Assembly: GCF_014646055.1 (NCBI RefSeq)
Contig: NZ_BMMS01000003.1
Coordinates: forward strand, 186,001-250,000
Source of the DNA: Wenjunlia tyrosinilytica
Lineage (GTDB): Bacteria > Actinomycetota > Actinomycetes > Streptomycetales > Streptomycetaceae
DNA: 64,000 bases
Direction: 5' to 3'
Positions 40,133 through 51,837 of this stretch are shown here, in pieces. Position 1 is the first letter of the stretch; each line of letters begins with the position of its first letter. The translations under genes were made by a program, and so were the position numbers. The notes beneath the pieces were generated by a model. The model worked only from the letters and a program-made list of their open reading frames with translations. It made no database searches and was not told the DNA's origin.

Positions 40133-41677
40133 TCAGTGCTCCAGCCCCTCCTCCAGACGCTGGCCGCGCAGCAGCAGCCATGCGGCGGCGGCCGCCGCGA
40201 GCAGCACCGCCGCGCCCGCCCCGCAGGCGATCCGCAGCCCGTCGACGAACGCGTCCTGGGCGGAGGCCAGCAGGGTCGCACCGGTGTGCGGGGCGAGGGT
40301 CCCGGCCGTCTCGACGGCGCCGCCCAGTGACTCCTGGGCGGCCGAGGCCGCCTCCTGCGGCGTGCCCCGGGGTATCGGGAATCCCCGGTAGGTGCCGGTG
40401 ACGACCGATCCGAGCAGGGCGATGCCGAGCGCGGTGCCGAGTTCGTAGGCGGTCTCGGAGACCGCCGACGCCGAGCCCGCGTCGTCCTTGGGCACCACGG
40501 AAAGGATCACGTCGGCGGTCACGGTGAACGACAGGCCCGCGCCGACACCCACCACCAGCAGGGCTGTTCCGAGGACCGGGTAGCCGGTGTCCGGGCTGAG
40601 CATGACCAGCGCGGCCAGCGCCACCCCTACGGCGGCGAGCCCTCCCGCGACAATGGAGCGCACGGAGAACCGCCGGGCCAATGAGCCCGCCACCAGTCCC
40701 GAGCCCACCGCCCCGATCGCGGCGGGGAGTTCGAAGAGACCGGCCTCCAGCGAGGACCTGCCCTGGACCAGTTGCAGGAACTGCGAGAGGAAGAAGATCA
40801 TCCCGGACAGCCCCAGGATGGTCAGCAGGTCGGCCAGGACCGAGCCGGAGAAGCCCCGGTGGCGGAACAGCCGCATGTCCAGCAGCGGGTGGGGCAGCAC
40901 GAGCTGCCGCCGCACGAAACCCACCAGCGCGCCGGCTCCGGCCAGGCCCGCCACCAGGGCATGGGTCCGCAGGCCGTGGGCGGCGACCTCCTTGACCGCG
41001 TAGACCACACCGATCATGCCGACGAGCGACAGGGCGACGCTGGGCATGTCCCAGGGCCCCGGGCAGGGGTTGCGCGACTCGGGCAGGACCTTGGCGCCCA
41101 CGAGGATCAGCAGGGCCATCACCGGAAGGTTGATCAGGAAGACCGAGCCCCACCAGAAGTGCTCCAGCAGGAACCCTCCGACGATGGGCCCGACCGCCAT
41201 GCCCGCCGACGCCATCGCCCCCCAGATGCCGATGGCGAGGCTGCGCTCGCGCGCGTCGTGGAAGAGGTTGCGGATCAGGGCCAGTGTGGACGGCATGAGT
41301 GTCGCCCCCGCCACCCCCATCAGGGCACGGGCGGCGATGAGCATCGCCGGGGTGTGCGCGTACGCGGCCAGCAGGGACAGCCCGCCGAAGGCCGCGGCGC
41401 CCACGAGCAACAGCCGCTTGCGGCCGATCCGGTCGCCCAGGCCTCCCATGGAGACCAGCAGACCGGCGATGACGAACGAGTAGACGTCACCGATCCACAG
41501 CAGTTCCGTCCCCGACGGACGCAGGTCCTCGCTCAGGTAGGGAACGGCGAGGCCCAGGACGGTGGCGTCCACGGCCACCAGCAGCACGGCGAGGTTGAGC
41601 ACGGCCAGCGCCAGCCACCGCCCCGAGCGGGGCGCCTCGGGCGCCGCCGCCTTCGGTGTGGTGTCGATGCTGGTCAT
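40133..41677 (-). CDS. DHA2-family MFS multidrug transporter
   Basis: A 514-residue MFS protein of the EmrB/QacA (DHA2) type, predicted with 14 membrane spans. Seen features are DATVLGLAVPYL in the first span, GDRIGRKRLLL after the second, and GPIVGGFLLEHFWWGSVFLINLP in the fifth. It likely exports drugs in exchange for protons. ATG at 41677 overlaps the TetR stop by four bases (ATGA), with GGAGG upstream. Regulated by the adjacent TetR protein. Confidence 0.92.
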   Translation of the reverse strand: MTSIDTTPKAAAPEAPRSGRWLALAVLNLAVLLVAVDATVLGLAVPYLSEDLRPSGTELLWIGDVYSFVIAGLLVSMGGLGDRIGRKRLLLVGAAAFGGLSLLAAYAHTPAMLIAARALMGVAGATLMPSTLALIRNLFHDARERSLAIGIWGAMASAGMAVGPIVGGFLLEHFWWGSVFLINLPVMALLILVGAKVLPESRNPCPGPWDMPSVALSLVGMIGVVYAVKEVAAHGLRTHALVAGLAGAGALVGFVRRQLVLPHPLLDMRLFRHRGFSGSVLADLLTILGLSGMIFFLSQFLQLVQGRSSLEAGLFELPAAIGAVGSGLVAGSLARRFSVRSIVAGGLAAVGVALAALVMLSPDTGYPVLGTALLVVGVGAGLSFTVTADVILSVVPKDDAGSASAVSETAYELGTALGIALLGSVVTGTYRGFPIPRGTPQEAASAAQESLGGAVETAGTLAPHTGATLLASAQDAFVDGLRIACGAGAAVLLAAAAAAWLLLRGQRLEEGLEH

Positions 41678-42222
41678 GACTGCCTCCTCAGTGCTCCGCC
41701 GAGCAGCGTCTCGGTGACGAGGTGCGCCGAGTCGCGGCGCGCGATACGCCCGTCCTCGACGGCCCAGCCGCAACCGGCGATGAGTGCCGTGTACGCCTCG
41801 GTGAGCCAGACGGCGGGCAGGTCGATGCGGAAGACGCCCTGCTCCTGGCCGCGGCGGAAGAGCGCGGCGACCCGCTCGTCGGACGCGTCCCACCCGGCCT
41901 TGAGCTCGGCGTCGTCGTAGAGCTGGTTCTCGCTGTACAGGAAGGCCAGGAAGCCCGCCTCGGGCATGGCGGCGTCGACGAGGCGGCGCAGCGCCCGCAC
42001 GGCGTCGCCCTCCTCGAGGCGGGCCGCGTCCATGGCCTCGTTCATCCGCCGTATCCCGAGCTCGCCGAGCGCCCGGACCAGCGCGTCGCGGCCGGGGAAG
42101 TGGCGGTGCAGGGTGGCCCGGCTGATGCCGGCGGCCTTGGCGATCTCGTCCATGGACGCCGTGGCACGCCGGGTCAGCAGCGCGGCCGCTTCCCTGAGCA
42201 TGTGCTCCCGATCAACACTCAT
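41674..42222 (-). CDS. TetR-family repressor of the MFS pump
   Basis: A 182-residue TetR regulator. DNA-binding domain at about 8-54 contains MDEIAKAAGISRATLHRHFPGRDAL. The C-terminal part is of variable type and would bind a drug. The gene lies upstream of the pump and overlaps it, so both are one operon. Start ATG at 42222 sits about at the predicted transcription start, so the message may be leaderless. The operator at 42242-42259 overlaps the promoter. Confidence 0.9.
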   Translation of the reverse strand: MSVDREHMLREAAALLTRRATASMDEIAKAAGISRATLHRHFPGRDALVRALGELGIRRMNEAMDAARLEEGDAVRALRRLVDAAMPEAGFLAFLYSENQLYDDAELKAGWDASDERVAALFRRGQEQGVFRIDLPAVWLTEAYTALIAGCGWAVEDGRIARRDSAHLVTETLLGGALRRQS

Positions 42223-42360: not shown

Positions 42361-43095
42361 ATGACTGAAACCAAGCGCGACCGTCTGCGCGTCGAGCAGG
42401 GGACCAAGCGAGTGCGCGCCTACCTCGGCGGGCATGTCGTGGCCGACACCGTACGACCGGTGCTCGTCTGGGAGAGCCCGCACTACCCGGCGTACTACTT
42501 CCCGGTCGACGATGTACGGACCGGGTTCCTCACCGCCACCGACGGCACCAAGCACTCACCGAGCAGGGGCGACGCGAAGGTGTTCACGGTCACCGTGCCC
42601 GGCAGGACCGCGGAGAACGCGGCATGGCGGTACGAGGACTCCCCCGTCGAGCGGCTGCGCGACCTGGTCCGGCTGGACTGGGACGCGATGGACGGCTGGT
42701 TCGAGGAGGACGAGGAAGTGTTCATCCACCCGCGCAGCCCGTTCACCCGGATCGACATCCTGGCCAGCTCGCGCGAGGTGCGGGTGGAGCTCGACGGGGA
42801 GGTCATCGCCGAGTCGCGCGCGCCGAAGGTGCTGTACGAGACGGGCCTGCCGCCGCGGTTCTACCTGCCCAAGACCGATGTCCGGCTCGACCTGCTGGAG
42901 CCGAGCACGACCGTCACCGGCTGCCCGTACAAGGGAACGGCCAGCCATCTGTCGGCGCGGGTCAACGGCACGGTCCACGCCGACATCGCCTGGACGTACC
43001 CGGCACCGCTCCCGGAGAGCGCGAAGATCGCCGGACTGGTCTCGTTCTACGACCGCAAGGTGAAGGTCTTCGTGGACGGCGAGCCGGTCGGATAG
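42361..43095 (+). CDS. DUF427 tandem-domain protein
   Basis: A 244-residue protein with two DUF427 (NTP_transf_9-type) beta domains: about 8-105 with HVVADTVRPVLVWESPHYPAYYFP, and about 125-240 with GEVIAESRAPKVLYETGLPPRFYLP. The family is widespread in actinobacteria but uncharacterised. ATG at 42361 is followed directly by family sequence. It stands between the TetR operator region and a small hypothetical gene. Confidence 0.85.
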   Translation: MTETKRDRLRVEQGTKRVRAYLGGHVVADTVRPVLVWESPHYPAYYFPVDDVRTGFLTATDGTKHSPSRGDAKVFTVTVPGRTAENAAWRYEDSPVERLRDLVRLDWDAMDGWFEEDEEVFIHPRSPFTRIDILASSREVRVELDGEVIAESRAPKVLYETGLPPRFYLPKTDVRLDLLEPSTTVTGCPYKGTASHLSARVNGTVHADIAWTYPAPLPESAKIAGLVSFYDRKVKVFVDGEPVG

Positions 43096-43498: not shown

Positions 43499-46400
43499 TC
43501 AGCCGCCGTCGGCCTCCGCCTCCGGCGGGGGCGGCGAAGCGGTCCGGGGAAAGAGCACCGGCGGCGCCAGAGCGGCGGCCAGCGTGGCCCCGGTCGCGCT
43601 CGTCAGGACGACCGCCCACGCGACCGGGCCCAGCGGCACACAGCCGAAGAAGTGACTGACCCCCGGCGTCTGCACCAGAGCGAACAGAACGGCGGCGGAG
43701 GCCGCGCTGGTCGCCACCACGGCCCCGCTGTGCCGGCCCGCCACCAGGGTCTGCCCGAGTTGGGTGCCGACCAGCGCCGCCAGGCCCATGGTGCCGGCCC
43801 GGGCACCGCGGCCGGTCATCCGTCCGACCTGCCAGGCGGCCAGCGCCCCGACGGTCGTGGAGGCGCCGCGGACGGCCAGGACACGGGCGGTGTCCCGGCG
43901 CAGCGGCGACTCACCGGGCCCGGGAGCGGGGGGCTCCTGACCGGATCCCGGCGGCCTGGCCGGGGCGACCGCCACCGCCAGGGCGGGCAGCATGTCGGTG
44001 AGCAGGTTGACCAGGAGGAGCTGGCGCGTGCTCAGAGGAGCATGTCCGGCCAGCGCGGTGCCGAGCACGGTGAAGGCGACCTCCCCGGCGTTGCCGCCGA
44101 CCAGGATGGCGACCGCGTCCCGCACACTGCCCCACAGCGCCCGCCCCTCGCGCAGGGCGTCGAGGATGTGGCGGGGGTCGGGTTCGGTCAGGACGAGGTC
44201 GGAGGCGCTGCGGGCGGAGGTCGATCCCCTCGCGGCCATGCCGATTCCCACGTCGGAGGCGCGGATGGCGGCGGCGTCGTTGATGCCGTCACCCACCATG
44301 GCGACCACCCGGCCGGACCGCTGGAGGTCGCGGACGATGCGCACCTTCTGCTCCGGTGAGACACGCGCGAACACCGTCGTCCCGGTGACGCGCTCGATAC
44401 GCGCCTTCTCGGTGAGCGTTTCCAGCTCCGTGCCGGTGACGACCGCGTCGGCGCCCTGGATGCCGAGGTCCCTCGCGATGGCGGCGGCGGTGGCCGGGTG
44501 GTCCCCCGTGATCATCACCACGGCGACGCCTGATCCGGCCAGTGCGGCCACGGTCTGCTCGGCGCCTGCCCGTACGGTGTCGGCGATCGCCACGAATCCG
44601 AGGAGCGTCAGATCCGCCAACGGGGTGTCGCCGGCCGTCTCGACGCTCTTCCGCCGTGCCTCGGCGACGGCGAGCACACGGAGCCCTTCGTCGGCCAGCC
44701 GCCTCACCTGTGTCTCGGCCTTGCGGCGCCGTGCCGGGTCCAGGGGCAGCGTTCGGTCGCCGCCGGGGTCCAGTGCGGTCGCGCAGTGTTCGAGAACGAT
44801 CTCGGGGGCGCCCTTGACCGCCAGGTACGGCCCGTCGGAATCCGTGCCGAACGACGCCGCGTAGCCCCGGCTCTCGACGAACGGCAACTCGTCGGTGGCC
44901 CGCCAGCTCCCGTCGTCCCCGGCAAGGCGGGAGGCGGCGTCGACGACGGCGCGGTCGGTGGCATGGACCATCCGCTTGGCCCCGGGGCCGTTGGTGTCCG
45001 GGCTGCTGCGGGCCGCCGCGCGCAGCAGCCGGCGGCCGAACGGGCTGTCGAGGGCGGTCGGCCCGTGCACCGACGCGACCCGGACGACGGAGAGCCGGCC
45101 CTCGGTGAGGGTTCCGGTCTTGTCGAAGCAGACCGTGTCGACCCGGCCGAGCGCTTCGAGCACCCGGGGCGTGCGGACCAGGACGGATCTGCGGGACAGC
45201 CTCCGCGCGGCCGCCGACTGGGCGACCGTCGCGACCAGGGGAAGGCCTTCGGGGACGGCCGCCACGGCGATGGCCACTCCGGAGGCGAGCGCGGTGCGCA
45301 GGACCTGGCCCCGCAGGAGCGCCAGCAGGGTGACGGCGCCGCCGCCGAGCCCGGTGGCGGGCAGCACGACCTTGCTGAGCCGGGCGAGATGCCCCTCGAT
45401 GCCCACCGGTGCGCGGGCGGGCCCGGCGATCTCCGCGGCACGACCGGCCTCGGTGTCGGCGCCGGTGGCCACGACGACCGCGGACCCGGAACCGGCCAGC
45501 ACGGTGCACCCCTGGTAGACCATGCAGGCGCGCTCGGCCAGGTCGGCACCCGGAGTGGGGCGCGGGTCCTTGGCGACGGGCGCGGACTCACCGGTCAGGC
45601 TTGCCTCGTCCATCTCCAGGTCGTCGGCCACCAGCAGGCGGGCGTCGGCCGGGACGACGTCCGAGGTCCGCAGGGCGACGATGTCCCCGGGGCGCAGCTC
45701 CTGTGCCGGGGTGGACCTCGGCCTGGCGGCACGCAGCCCCGTCAGGTCACCGTCCGCCTCGGGGCCGGGTGCCCAGGTGACGCGCCGGGCGGTCAGCTGC
45801 TCCTGTAGGAGAAGGCCGCTGAGCGCCCGTCCGGCGCTCAGCCGCTGCCCGCCGCTGATCAGCGCGTTGCCCACCATCACTCCGCCGACCAGCAGGGAGT
45901 CCGCGGTGGACCCGACCACCGCCGAGGCCGCCGCGCCCACGGCGAGGACGGGGGTGAGCGGGTCGCGAAGCTCCTCCCGCACGGCCCGGACGAAGGCGGC
46001 GGCCAGGCGGACGGGACCGGCGAGAGCGGCGGCCGGAGGCCAGCCCGACTCGGCAGCCGTCGCTGCCACCGCCGCCACGGCCCGAAGGGCTCGGGTCCGG
46101 CCCGCTCCCTCGGTGCTCCGCGGAGCGCGGGCCTCGTCCGGCGGCGGCCGGACCATGGTCAGGACCTCCCGGGCGCCCAGCGCGTGCCAGGCGTCCCGCA
46201 CACGCCCCGGGGGAAGTGGCGCTCGGGCCACGCCGTGGGCGGTGAGGACGCCGGAGACCAGCGCCAGCGCGGCCGCGGCGTTGACCGGTGAGGAGGCCCG
46301 CTCCCCCGCCGACCGGCCGTCACCGCGGCTGGTGAGGAGGGCGCCGAGCACCGAGGCACCGGTGGACATCCTGGCCGAGTGGGCACTGACCCGGTGGGCG

Positions 46401-48217
46401 GGGCCGATGGCGCTCAGCAGGCGCCAGGGCTGCTCGAGGCCGGGTCCGCAGACGAGGTCGGCGAACCAGTGGTGCGGGGCGCTCGCTCTTCGGGGCAGCA
46501 CCGCGACCCCGACGTCGGCGGTCCGCAGGGCGTCGCCGTCGCGGTCGGTGACCAGCAGGACGCCGTGCCCGTCGGCCTGCAACCGCCGGATCCGGCGGGA
46601 CAGGGCGTCCCCGCCGGGCAGGACCTCGTCCACCAGGGGGCGCAGCACGCTCGTGCTCGCGTTCTCGGTGATCAGGACCCTTTCGGCTCCGGAGCGTGCC
46701 GCGCCGATCAGCGCGTCCGCGAGCGGGTCAAGGACGGAGCCGACGCGGACCCGGCCCTGTCTGCGGCCGCGCTCGTCGAAGAGATCGAGCACCAGGGCGT
46801 CGTCGGCCTGCCCCGGGCGCTCGGTGTCCCTGGCGTGCTTCAGGCGCCATCCGCCGGCCGTCCAGGGACCGGCGCCGGTGAACTCGGACAGGTCCCGGTC
46901 GGCCAGCAGGGTGTGCGCGACGCCCCAGACCTCGGCGTCGTCCAGGTCCGCGGTGGCCAGGGCGGACAGCACCCTCGGCCTCGGGGTGCACAGGGCCGTC
47001 GAGACGATGACGACCGCGGAGATCCGGTCCAGCAGGCGCAGCGCGTCCGGCCGCATGGGGACGGCTCCCCGGCGGGCGAGGTCACGCAGGAGCACGCAGG
47101 TGAAGGCCTCCCGTCCCAGCTCGGCGGCCTTCGGCACCGTCGCCAGCAGCGCCTCGGCGGCCCGTGCCGGGCTGAGCGTCCACGCCAGCACGCCCGCGGC
47201 CCCGAGCAGCGTCGCCGCGGCCGTGCGGTCCGCGCAGGTCTCCACCGGCCCCGCCGGGAACGGCGCCGGGCGCGGGACCGGCTTCGCGGCCTCCCTCGGA
47301 AGCTGGGAGGCGTCCGCCGCGAGGTCGCCCTCGCGCTGGCGCCAGGCCTCCTGCGCGCTGCGGATCTCGGACAGCTGCATCGCGCGCTGCACCGCGTCGA
47401 CCCCCATGGCCGCGGCTCCGGCCGTGGCGGCGTGGACCACGGCGCTGGCGAGCGCGAGCAGCATGTCGGCGTGGGGTGCCCCGAGCCGTTCCCGCAGGAT
47501 CCGGCGCGCCCGGGGCTGGGTCTGCGCCAGCACCAGCGGTGCTCGCAGCGCTCGTGGCAGCGGAGGGACGGGGAGGTAGCGCCACGCGGCCGCGACGGCG
47601 ATCCCCACGCAGTCCGTGGCGAGGGAGACCGCGGCCAAGGTGGCGGGGACCGTGTCGAACGGGGTCCAGGGGGCCTGGGCGGAGAAGGGTTCCGTGTCGA
47701 CGCCGTGGGCCTCCTCGACGGCCTGCACCACTTCGAGGAGCCCGTCCACATCGACCTGGCCCTCGTCGAAGGAGATCACCATCTGCCCGAGTACCGCGTT
47801 GACCTCGGCCCAGTGGATGCCCTCGATGTCCCTCACCGACTCGACCAGCGACTGCGCGACCGCACGGTGCCGCCTGCCGCGCCCGGTCAGCCCCCGCACC
47901 TCGACGTGGGCGCGCCCGGCACGGGCCCACAGACGGCGGCGCCTGCGGCGTCCGGCCGTCTCGGTGACGGCGTCGGTGATGTCACCCCAGGCCCGCGGGA
48001 CCGCCTCGGCCGCCTTCTCGCCCGCCCGCCGTGCCGTGTCCACGACCGACACCACGGCGTCCAGCAGACCGGAGAGCGCGCTCGCGGCGCTGTCCACCGG
48101 GGAGTCGGCCACACCGCGTGCCTGCTCCGCGACGGTGTCCAACAGGCGGCCGAGACGCGGCCAACCAAGGGAGGCAGCGGTGCCGTTGACGCCCGGCATC
48201 GACAGGCCCACCGGCAC
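43499..48217 (-). CDS. Giant P-type cation ATPase with internal pseudo-ATPase half
   Basis: A 1572-residue P-type ATPase of the size of mycobacterial CtpI/CtpH. Residues about 103-172 are an HMA-like domain without the CxxC metal pair. Residues about 330-690 repeat the ATPase core but with VIVSTALC at 403-410 in place of FDKTGTLT and TDRDGDA in place of the GDGIND hinge. Residues about 740-1560 are the active copy: TGES 875-878, PEGLP 989-993, DKTGTLT 1032-1038, GDGIND 1309-1314, and about ten membrane spans. Ion specificity is unknown. Start ATG at 48217; an AT-rich divergent promoter lies just upstream. Confidence 0.88.
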   Translation of the reverse strand: MPVGLSMPGVNGTAASLGWPRLGRLLDTVAEQARGVADSPVDSAASALSGLLDAVVSVVDTARRAGEKAAEAVPRAWGDITDAVTETAGRRRRRRLWARAGRAHVEVRGLTGRGRRHRAVAQSLVESVRDIEGIHWAEVNAVLGQMVISFDEGQVDVDGLLEVVQAVEEAHGVDTEPFSAQAPWTPFDTVPATLAAVSLATDCVGIAVAAAWRYLPVPPLPRALRAPLVLAQTQPRARRILRERLGAPHADMLLALASAVVHAATAGAAAMGVDAVQRAMQLSEIRSAQEAWRQREGDLAADASQLPREAAKPVPRPAPFPAGPVETCADRTAAATLLGAAGVLAWTLSPARAAEALLATVPKAAELGREAFTCVLLRDLARRGAVPMRPDALRLLDRISAVVIVSTALCTPRPRVLSALATADLDDAEVWGVAHTLLADRDLSEFTGAGPWTAGGWRLKHARDTERPGQADDALVLDLFDERGRRQGRVRVGSVLDPLADALIGAARSGAERVLITENASTSVLRPLVDEVLPGGDALSRRIRRLQADGHGVLLVTDRDGDALRTADVGVAVLPRRASAPHHWFADLVCGPGLEQPWRLLSAIGPAHRVSAHSARMSTGASVLGALLTSRGDGRSAGERASSPVNAAAALALVSGVLTAHGVARAPLPPGRVRDAWHALGAREVLTMVRPPPDEARAPRSTEGAGRTRALRAVAAVAATAAESGWPPAAALAGPVRLAAAFVRAVREELRDPLTPVLAVGAAASAVVGSTADSLLVGGVMVGNALISGGQRLSAGRALSGLLLQEQLTARRVTWAPGPEADGDLTGLRAARPRSTPAQELRPGDIVALRTSDVVPADARLLVADDLEMDEASLTGESAPVAKDPRPTPGADLAERACMVYQGCTVLAGSGSAVVVATGADTEAGRAAEIAGPARAPVGIEGHLARLSKVVLPATGLGGGAVTLLALLRGQVLRTALASGVAIAVAAVPEGLPLVATVAQSAAARRLSRRSVLVRTPRVLEALGRVDTVCFDKTGTLTEGRLSVVRVASVHGPTALDSPFGRRLLRAAARSSPDTNGPGAKRMVHATDRAVVDAASRLAGDDGSWRATDELPFVESRGYAASFGTDSDGPYLAVKGAPEIVLEHCATALDPGGDRTLPLDPARRRKAETQVRRLADEGLRVLAVAEARRKSVETAGDTPLADLTLLGFVAIADTVRAGAEQTVAALAGSGVAVVMITGDHPATAAAIARDLGIQGADAVVTGTELETLTEKARIERVTGTTVFARVSPEQKVRIVRDLQRSGRVVAMVGDGINDAAAIRASDVGIGMAARGSTSARSASDLVLTEPDPRHILDALREGRALWGSVRDAVAILVGGNAGEVAFTVLGTALAGHAPLSTRQLLLVNLLTDMLPALAVAVAPARPPGSGQEPPAPGPGESPLRRDTARVLAVRGASTTVGALAAWQVGRMTGRGARAGTMGLAALVGTQLGQTLVAGRHSGAVVATSAASAAVLFALVQTPGVSHFFGCVPLGPVAWAVVLTSATGATLAAALAPPVLFPRTASPPPPEAEADGG

Positions 48218-48331: not shown

Positions 48332-48790
48332 ATGAGCACTCCCACACCAGCCCGCAAGCCCGCACAGTCCGGCGGCCAAAGGCAGCCCACCCCCGCCGGG
48401 AAGCAGGACGCCGGGGGAGGCAGGAAGCGGGCGCCGTCGAAGCAGGCCGCGTCGAAGCGGACCACCCCGGCACCCGCCGCGCGGTCGGCCCAGCGCAGGA
48501 CCGCCGGGCACGACGGGCACGACATCACCGTCCACATCCCGGTCGACCGGATGGCGCACAAGGCGGCCGACGCCGCGATGCTGCCCGTGGCCGTCGCCGG
48601 CCGGGTACTCCCCGCCAAGGGCGGGCTCCCGGTGTACATCGGCCTCGGCGCCCTGGGCGCCGCCGGTGTGATCGAGTGGCCCGTGGCTCTGGGCATCGGC
48701 GCCGGGTACGCGATCCTCCGGCGCACCGGGCTCATGCCTTCCTCAGGCGCGCAGACGCAACGAGGGGACTCCGCCGCCAAGGCCGCGTGA
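48332..48790 (+). CDS. Small membrane protein divergent from the P-type ATPase
   Basis: A 152-residue protein, unrecognised. Residues 1-60 are basic and disordered (Pro, Ala, Lys, Arg), then HDITVHIPVDRMAH, and two hydrophobic segments at about 78-95 and 97-128 (VYIGLGALGAAGVIEWPVALGIGAGYAIL). Divergent from the P-type ATPase across a shared promoter, so an accessory or regulatory subunit is possible. ATG at 48332. Confidence 0.7.
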   Translation: MSTPTPARKPAQSGGQRQPTPAGKQDAGGGRKRAPSKQAASKRTTPAPAARSAQRRTAGHDGHDITVHIPVDRMAHKAADAAMLPVAVAGRVLPAKGGLPVYIGLGALGAAGVIEWPVALGIGAGYAILRRTGLMPSSGAQTQRGDSAAKAA

Positions 48791-48885: not shown

Positions 48886-50442
<1,557 letters not shown>

Positions 50443-51657
50443 TCAGGCGGGCAGGCCGGTCCCGGCCCGCTGGTCCCGCCGCGCGGCGATCTTGCTCGAC
50501 ATGCCGAACAGCTCGATGAAGCCCTTGGACAGCGACTGGTCGAAGGTGTCGCCGCTGTCGTAGGTGGCCAGGTTGAAATCGTAGAGCGAGGTGTCGCTCT
50601 TCCGGCCGGTGACGACGGCCCGGCCGCCGTGCAGCGTCATCCGGATGTCACCGCAGACATGCTGGTTGGCGTCCTGGATGAAGCCGTCCAGGGCCCGCTT
50701 GAGCGGGGAGAACCACATGCCGTCGTAGACGAGCTCGCCCCACCGCTGGTCCACGGTCTTCTTGAACCGGGCCAGCTCCCGCTCGACCGTGACGTTCTCC
50801 AGCTCCTGGTGGGCGGTGATCAGCGCGATGGCGCCCGGTGCCTCGTAGATCTCCCGGGACTTGATGCCGACCAGCCGGTCCTCGACCATGTCGAGCCGTC
50901 CGACACCCTGGGCGCCGGCCCTGCGGTTGAGCTCCTCGATCGCCTGGAGCACGGTGACCGTCCGGCCGTCGATCGCGACCGGCACACCGGCGGCGAAGGT
51001 GATGACGACCTCGTCGGCCTCCCGCGGCTCGGCGGGGTTCTGCGTGTACTCGTACACGTCCTCGATCGGCGCGTTCCAGATGTCCTCGAGGAAACCGGTC
51101 TCGACGGCCCGGCCGAAGACGTTCTGGTCGATGGAGTACGGGGACTTCTTGGTGGTCGCGATCGGGAGGTTCTTCTCCTCGCAGAACGCGATCGCCTTGT
51201 CCCGGGTCATCGCGTAGTCCCGGACGGGGGCGATGCACTTCAGATCAGGGGCCAGGGAGGAGATGCCCGCCTCGAACCGCACCTGGTCGTTGCCCTTGCC
51301 CGTGCAGCCGTGGGCCACGGTCGTGGCGCCGTGCTTGCGGGCGGCGGCGACCAGGTGCTTGACGATGGTCGGCCGGGAGAGGGCGGACACCAGCGGATAC
51401 CGGTCCATGTAGAGCGCGTTGGACTGGATCGCGGGAAGGCAGTACTCGTTGGCGAACTCGTCCCTGGCGTCGGCGACCTCGGCCTCGACCGCGCCGCAGG
51501 CAAGCGCCCGCTTCCGGATGATCTCCAGGTCCTCGCCGCCCTGGCCGACGTCCACCGCTACGGCGATGACCTCGGCGCCGGTCTCCTCGGCGATCCAGCC
51601 GATGCAGACGGAGGTGTCCAGGCCGCCCGAGTAGGCGAGTACGACGCGCTCGGTCAT
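50443..51657 (-). CDS. argG: Argininosuccinate synthase
   Basis: A 404-residue ArgG. The P-loop-like [10 protein letters not shown] is at residues 8-17, followed by [14 protein letters not shown] and SPYSIDQN. It ligates citrulline and aspartate using ATP. ATG at 51657. The upstream region holds candidate ARG boxes. In Streptomyces coelicolor, as I recall, argG is elsewhere, while contiguous argRGH resembles the S. clavuligerus order. Confidence 0.95.
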
Positions 51658-51719
51658 TGCTCTCTCCTTAGGTGCGCGGTCTTCGCGTGTCGGCTGCCGA
51701 GTCGTCCCGTCCTGGTAGC

Positions 51720-51775
51720 TCTCCATGCAGCTCGTGGAATAAGTATGCAGCATTCCGCATGGATCTGCAAACGCT
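51720..51775. promoter_or_regulatory. Candidate ARG boxes upstream of argG
   Basis: The region between argG and argR is locally AT-rich with TGCA-containing repeats: CCATGCAG, TATGCAGC and CCATGCGGAATGC-like on the minus strand. These match the loose Streptomyces ArgR half-site (AT-rich with TGCA). Two half sites about one helical turn apart fit a hexameric ArgR target; exact borders are uncertain. Confidence 0.5.
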
Positions 51776-51837
51776 TCGCCCCGGAACGCCGGATCCGGGG
51801 CGAAGGCGCAGGTCAACGGGGCTGCGGGCGGTGCGGG

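Follow-up and report, generated by a model that had tools for sequence, protein, structure and literature searches.

A gene of Wenjunlia tyrosinilytica encodes a P-type ATPase in which a pump-like N half stands ahead of an active C half, and the question it raises is what this front half is, where it came from and whether it is still kept for a purpose. We analysed the window, a stretch of 64,000 nucleotides from contig NZ_BMMS01000003.1 (assembly GCF_014646055.1). The original prediction had read the gene as one frame of 1572 residues in which a dead ATPase half was fused to an active one within the same molecule. The frame itself was confirmed, and the features of its C half, taken from domain matches and from an alignment of 72 sequences, are listed below.

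43499–48217, minus strand: whole open reading frame, FUPA24 / CtpH-CtpI-type P-type ATPase, 1572 aa, GTG start
43538–46015, minus strand: active type II pump, residues 735-1560, by Pfam, PDB and NCBIfam matches
45584–45595, minus strand: TGES, residues 875-878 (first residue T in 66 and N in 5 of the 71 rows covering the site)
45242–45253, minus strand: PEGL of helix M4, residues 989-992 (72-sequence alignment)
45104–45124, minus strand: DKTGTLT phosphorylation motif, residues 1032-1038 (72-sequence alignment)
44276–44293, minus strand: GDGIND hinge, residues 1309-1314 (72-sequence alignment)
44081–44092, minus strand: N1376 to E1379 in M5, cation-ligand positions, unsubstituted in 70 covering rows
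43994–44008, minus strand: N1404, T1407 and D1408 in M6, cation-ligand positions, unsubstituted in 70 covering rows

The family and its active half

The pump was present as a single copy in its own genome (8.49 Mb, 172 contigs), where five weaker matches were pieces of other P-type ATPases. The 72 aligned sequences comprised the window protein, 13 Nocardia sequences and two further sets of 40 and 18. Two partial loci (L009 and L015), one with broken frames (L166) and one that was P1B-like (L172) were excluded; truncated rows such as L090 were retained, and L171 is present with its N half only and is absent from the tree. The N half was carried by 54 of the 119 genomes in the sampled order, and 39 of these 54 are included in the alignments. 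A search of the phylum with the N-half profile, with up to four candidates scored per genome, matched 59 of 296 genomes at E 0.001. A cut at E 3.5e-20 or better gave 21 carriers of the family, to which one genome (G359, E 1e-9) was added by inspection, giving 22. The remaining 37 matches were taken for ordinary pumps weakly matched by the profile; the one inspected among them (G351, locus L172) was P1B-like. The plasmid collection held at least 5000 matching records; among the matches listed none spanned 80% of the query, and the best of them, on a Streptomyces fungicidicus replicon, showed 50.7% identity across 59% of the query.

The window protein belongs to FUPA24 (TC 3.A.3.24; CtpH/CtpI), a known but uncharacterised actinobacterial family. 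The assignment was made through described features, with the Mycobacterium CtpH and CtpI compared by description only. The length of 1572 aa is about twice the usual one, and in the motif scan of 72 sequences the functional motifs were confined to the C-terminal region. The same double length, large N-terminal segment and C-terminal motifs are given for CtpH and CtpI as FUPA24 members in excerpts of PMC3573892, which also model ten helices in the C-terminal half of both. In a 2023 review (PMC10654040), CtpI and CtpH are listed among the uncharacterised pumps and may form a separate family, and the introduction of a further paper, citing another work, has calcium homeostasis mediated by CtpH (PMC13204550). 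CtpH is Rv0425c (PMC4119724). Loci L161-L165, from genomes of the same class as Mycobacterium, fell within the pump tree. FUPA24 is reportedly described in a 2010 abstract by Chan et al. as the fusion of a type I with a type II gene, the latter alone functional; our literature search did not find this statement. The N half of the window protein agrees with this definition in appearing type I-derived and inactive, with inactivity judged from its lost motifs. Such a fusion was thus reportedly described before, and the new parts are a refined anatomy and a candidate partner.

Pfam found the A, P and C-terminal pump domains in the C half only. Residues 747-1538 matched solved Ca2+ pumps, with Listeria lmo0841 at the top (E 3.9e-87), and Ca-type families headed the ranking. 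The active C half was correctly foreseen: TGES at 875, PEGL at 989-992, DKTGTLT at 1032 and GDGIND at 1309 were all present, and the whole motif set of type II Ca2+ ATPases (TGES, DKTGT, GDGxND, PEGL and the M5/M6 ligands) was found. No substitution was seen at D1032, E990 (PEGL), N1376, E1379, N1404, T1407 or D1408 in the 70-71 rows covering them; those in M4, M5 and M6 we take to correspond to the Ca2+ ligands of SERCA. In motifs and cation-ligand positions the C half resembles Type IIA/PMR1-like Ca2+ ATPases (lmo0841, SPCA1). Unlike the PMR1-like pumps, it scored below the cut-off of all the NCBIfam equivalog models listed (TIGR01522, TIGR01116 and TIGR01517; 357 against 798 bits for the PMR1-type), so no substrate family is assigned to it. 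It would pump Ca2+ or Mn2+ most likely.

Fold and lost motifs of the front half

The features of the front half are as follows.

47708–47914, minus strand: HMA-like (ferredoxin-fold) domain, residues ~102-170, no Cys (HMA_2 E 0.00053, below cut-off; CopA HMA profile E 2.5e-7; pLDDT ~80)
47066–47662, minus strand: helix region of the putative decayed pump, residues 186-384, weakly hydrophobic, no A domain (pLDDT mostly <50)
47129–47134, minus strand: P362-K363, putative relic of the CPx site in helix M4 (P in 71 of 72 rows; K in 62, R in 9, M in 1), equated with CPx by eye from the alignment to P1B M4
46418–47065, minus strand: pseudo P domain with shrunken N domain, residues 385-600, by profiles, AlphaFold2, Foldseek and VIA
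47003–47005, minus strand: V405, where an active pump has its phosphorylated Asp (residues in 72 rows: 43 Asp, 25 His, 3 Glu, 1 Val)
46493–46564, minus strand: hinge relic, residues 552-575, GDGIND lost and AL..ADVG kept, by alignment and hhalign
46223–46405, minus strand: helices past the pseudo P domain, residues 605-665, at the presumed type I M5/M6 positions, from hydropathy peaks

Scanned singly, N halves gave mainly weak HMA or CopZ matches in Pfam and NCBIfam and a few weak P1B ones. As a profile, the N half ranked copper ATPases first in the PDB, matching their HMA and P domains (E 2.5e-7 at best; ATP7B 3.2e-5), and hhalign aligned it with 18 P1B pumps, kept by length and motif from 22 loci tried, at E 3.1e-9 over 216 columns spanning acceptor and hinge. 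A template-free AlphaFold2 model, built from the window protein and 13 Nocardia sequences, was of low confidence overall (mean pLDDT 58.3, pTM 0.43). Its pLDDT was highest in the HMA-like part (about 80), followed by the P domain (about 75), and was mostly <50 among the helices, so that the model does not fix how the two halves are arranged. The best Foldseek matches of this model were ZntA (E 3.9e-10) and CopA (6.5e-10), and VIA gave Z 14.7 to the CopA P domain over 117 residues (rmsd 2.0). A phosphoserine phosphatase of HAD fold tied with CopA in VIA (Z 14.6), and what VIA shows is therefore the HAD fold; the P1B assignment comes from the sequence profiles and the Foldseek ranking. On this evidence residues ~330-690 do include the P-type core proposed for them, and the N half is predicted to share with P1B heavy-metal ATPases (CopA, ZntA) the HMA-like fold, the order of parts and the P-domain fold. 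Its helices, with hydropathy peaks of 0.81-1.5, are weakly hydrophobic and so may not span the membrane.

The functional sites of CopA and ZntA are absent. DKTG, TGES and GDGxxD were each found in 0 of 72 N halves (window included), in line with the predicted loss of catalytic motifs; CxxC was found in 0 of 72 within the 130 residues ahead of position 185, and a CPC string anywhere in the N half in 1 of 72. The HMA domain lacks a CxxC pair as had been said, residues 95-180 of the window protein holding no Cys at all. Of the P1B sites, neither the CPx metal site in M4 nor TGE in an A domain with DKTGT and GDGxND was recovered. TGES is indeed missing, as predicted, and this is because the entire A domain is gone rather than the motif being changed: its place is taken by 20-31 residues in 65 of 72 rows, by 61 in two and by 84-85 in five.

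At the acceptor position the prediction needed more revision. The register that paired FDKTGTLT with 403-410 was off by one; alignment of homologues (VVIDSSALCT against VVIVSTALCT) sets IVSTALCT at 404-411 against FDKTGTLT and makes V405 the acceptor position. The change from Asp to Val had been expected to be conserved in homologues, and it is private to the window protein: most homologues (43 of 72) keep the Asp, an outcome that the original prediction had itself named as counting against it. Against the FUPA24 literature, too, this Val is a feature of the window's member. The losses common to all N halves are K-T-G-T and the hinge, and it is because K-T-G-T and GDGxxD are missing from 72 of 72 that the N half is called dead, despite the Asp in 43.

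Five rows from one family of the same phylum (L167-L171), those with 84-85 residues at the A-domain place, still have what looks like half an A domain, with TGES missing, together with a longer N domain. Their profile is collinear with P1B pumps over 549 columns (E 5.8e-12). In Pfam all five gave HMA_2 above cut-off and three gave a sub-threshold match to the HAD family, and no E1-E2_ATPase match was obtained up to E 1, so the A-domain relic is drawn from the profile alignment. Four members of the clade formed the first branch after the outgroup in a tree of C halves (quick method, SH-aLRT only), the root of which is unsure because the outgroup rows are long. We read the clade as an intermediate, still visible today, on the way from a full type I pump to the decayed form. 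It has Asp at the acceptor and SDG or SDN at the hinge. In L167, L169 and L171, all 3 of its loci whose upstream flank exceeds 2 kb (the last two from one genus), genes for DtxR-type (iron-dependent-repressor) regulators lay no more than 5 kb from the pump; the L167 locus also carries ZnuA, ABC and ABC-3 genes (a ZnuA/ABC-3 operon). This gene context speaks for divalent metal handling in the early-branching clade only, and no metal-related genes were seen beside the window's pump gene. Neither the A-domain relic of this clade nor the majority Asp nor the small partner gene described below was met in the parts of the FUPA24 literature examined.

Broken FUPA24 frames were observed at two loci and may reflect sequencing error or decay: L166:4218-7589 is split into stretches of 324, 430 and 740 aa, and the 1097-aa ORF at L171:4628-7918 goes out of frame within the C half. 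A small gene just upstream of the latter pump (L171:4145-4525) encodes an E3-binding domain (PF02817, E 3.4e-11), which is odd company.

The Asp kept in 43 of 72 rows, the earliest branch among them, and the SDG/SDN hinge of a clade lying near DtxR-type regulators would suit an N half with chemistry or binding of its own, for instance as a metal or nucleotide sensor or as a HAD-like phosphatase acting through that Asp. Yet the acceptor residue changed at least 4 times on the tree, GDGxxD and the CxxC before position 185 are absent from every row, and the window protein has Val at the acceptor; we regard such an activity as rather unlikely.

Constraint on the front half and its origin

Selection was measured on 159 close pairs (37 of 54 rows, C-half dS 0.05-0.5), which replaced the saturated medians over 1431 pairs (N half 0.92, C half 0.58). 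Median dN/dS was 0.337 for the N half, 0.304 for the pseudo P domain and 0.248 for the C half, and the N-half value exceeded 0.8 in 0 of 159 pairs. No stops were found in the matched N-half stretches across the 54 pump-bearing genomes of the order. These data bear on the alternative that the N half is tolerated as neutral, useless debris left by an earlier fusion. Lost motifs, an acceptor position drifting among D, H, E and V, an N-domain region shortened by a gap that starts by residue 416 in 22 of 25 His rows, and a mean column identity of 34% against 53% in the C half all fit debris, as do the N half of G106, split over two frames (574 and 1313 aa), and the broken L166. An N-half median of 0.34 with no pair above 0.8 argues against it, and so do the still lower ratio of the pseudo P domain, the absence of stops and the P-K kept at M4. 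The constraint may partly reflect folding or membrane insertion only, and the N-half data show constraint, not proof of function; even so, we consider debris improbable.

Genome G075 has, in addition to a FUPA24 gene in a 1451-aa frame, a second fragmentary N-half match (G075:C1:1678231-1679003; frames of 342 and 129 aa) that is maybe a remnant copy.

The correspondence between the two halves, claimed originally from alignment by eye, was upheld by profiles and not by pairwise comparison. BLASTP of the N half against the C half of the window protein gave a best E of 1.1, within chance; its best segment (358-411 against 985-1038) was the very stretch that had been named. Profiles of 54 sequences aligned by hhalign at E 1.9e-8 (residues 485-615 against 1204-1366), or at 8.7e-6 over 139 columns with another choice of columns. 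An internal duplication, making the N half a degenerate copy of its own C half, would explain this shared P-type core and is nevertheless highly improbable, since like-for-like the N half is closer to P1B pumps (3.1e-9, 216 columns) than to its own C half (8.7e-6, 139), an HMA domain sits in front of it, its PDB profile matches lead with copper ATPases and the early-branching clade is collinear with P1B pumps over 549 columns. By profile and model, the N half (~100-690) is a decayed type I (P1B-like) ATPase and not a copy of the C half. The proposal of an intramolecular dead ATPase stands as regards the catalytic motifs, lost in 72 of 72, and is refined in that the dead half is no twin of the active one.

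The fold, the homology, the motif loss, the conservation and the co-occurrence of a small gene are established computationally, and the explanation that we find probable for them is a FUPA24 pump with a live type II unit behind a decayed type I unit, the front half serving as a regulatory or scaffolding part and a small protein as an accessory in many species. The C half (~735-1560) would run the usual Asp-phosphorylation cycle at D1032. The front half (~100-690) would have lost its A domain, metal ligands, phosphorylation loop and hinge, while selection would have maintained its HMA-like and P-domain folds. Its most likely role would be that of a regulator or scaffold within the pump itself; placed at the membrane or on the cytoplasmic head, it may gate the active half. 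A regulatory role, as first suggested, is plausible for the N half, and we infer that it is the C half that would be regulated. Should the live half prove to be gated by the dead one, the protein would be a case of a pseudoenzyme among P-type pumps.

A small membrane protein beside the pump

The accessory subunit proposed for many species is encoded next to the pump gene.

48332–48790, plus strand: divergent neighbour, 152-aa small membrane protein with a hydrophobic (E/D)WP core, candidate partner subunit by profile co-occurrence

Homologues of this protein were found at 34 of 75 pump loci, a count that includes partial loci and the P1B-like L172 and leaves the window aside; L161-L163 carry one on each flank of the pump. 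Across the sampled order the small gene occurred in 48 of 119 genomes, namely in 48 of the 54 with the pump and 0 of the 65 without, in a search whose first look scored 38 candidates per genome, with misses possible. The profile had been trained on pump neighbours from 29 of the 119 genomes; in the 90 outside training the gene was present in 19 of 25 with the pump (adjacent in 16 of the 19) and in 0 of 65 without. The Fisher values of 4.9e-27 (119 genomes) and 1.2e-14 (90 genomes) overstate independence because the genomes are related. Of 52 copies, 45 lay within 6 kb of an N-half match. In 35 of these the small gene was upstream and read in the pump's direction, in 9 (the window's included) it was upstream in divergent orientation, and in 1 it was downstream, 0.1 kb beyond the end of the pump ORF. 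The other 7 lay elsewhere or on other contigs, one of them (G032) at contig ends that may adjoin each other. In the phylum sample the gene was found in 10 of 296 genomes, 9 of them with the pump; G175, without it, matched at a weak E of 6.6e-5.

Among the 22 phylum-sample genomes that carry the pump, 13 gave no match to the small gene, and none was found near the pump in many lineages, including all 15 Nocardia loci (two partial). Where pumps lacked the partner, neither a motif search (37 loci) nor an ORF scan (14 of them) turned up a convincing diverged (E/D)WP protein, and an all-against-all comparison of ORFs around 18 partner-less pumps returned mostly overlapping frames or few-locus matches. 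Ten of the small proteins were scanned with Pfam and none matched above cut-off.

Small regulatory or accessory subunits accompany several P-type pumps, among them KdpF, phospholamban-type proteins and beta subunits. The (E/D)WP protein is like these in being a small membrane protein tied to one pump family; unlike them, it has no Pfam match above cut-off in the ten proteins scanned and is a candidate partner by co-occurrence. It looks like an overlooked partner of the pump, and from its distribution we infer that it may bind it. By a limited literature search, the small partner gene is apparently new.

A fuller history is possible, and we put it forward tentatively: a heavy-metal pump would have been fused to a Ca2+/Mn2+ pump and stripped stepwise of its A domain and catalysis, with the steps visible in living lineages, and would now act as an in-cis gate or metal sensor that forms, with the small (E/D)WP protein, a two-part complex in many actinobacteria. 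The results give a testable anatomy, with a selection-kept pseudo-pump ahead of a live pump, an apparent living intermediate of decay and a candidate partner outside Pfam.

In Mycobacterium, ctpH is flanked by Rv0424c and Rv0426c. The two are tabulated in an excerpt of PMC2396618, in entries read as 10 and 13.9 kDa with 1 and 2 helices, and the available parts of the literature on those locus tags do not treat a link to a pump partner. An excerpt of PMC12357739 gives Rv0424c-Rv0426c as thiamine genes, in conflict with PMC4119724, where Rv0425c is CtpH.

Two loci, L164 and L165, are second FUPA24 copies (genomes G266 and G214) with 61 residues at their A-domain place; no partner was found beside them, and the other copies in these genomes (L163 and L162) are flanked by the partner on both sides. 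The flanks of the window's pump (42361-43095, 41674-42222 and 48886-51816), judged by eye, look ordinary and presumably encode a possible DUF427 protein, a TetR-type regulator and argininosuccinate lyase with synthase.
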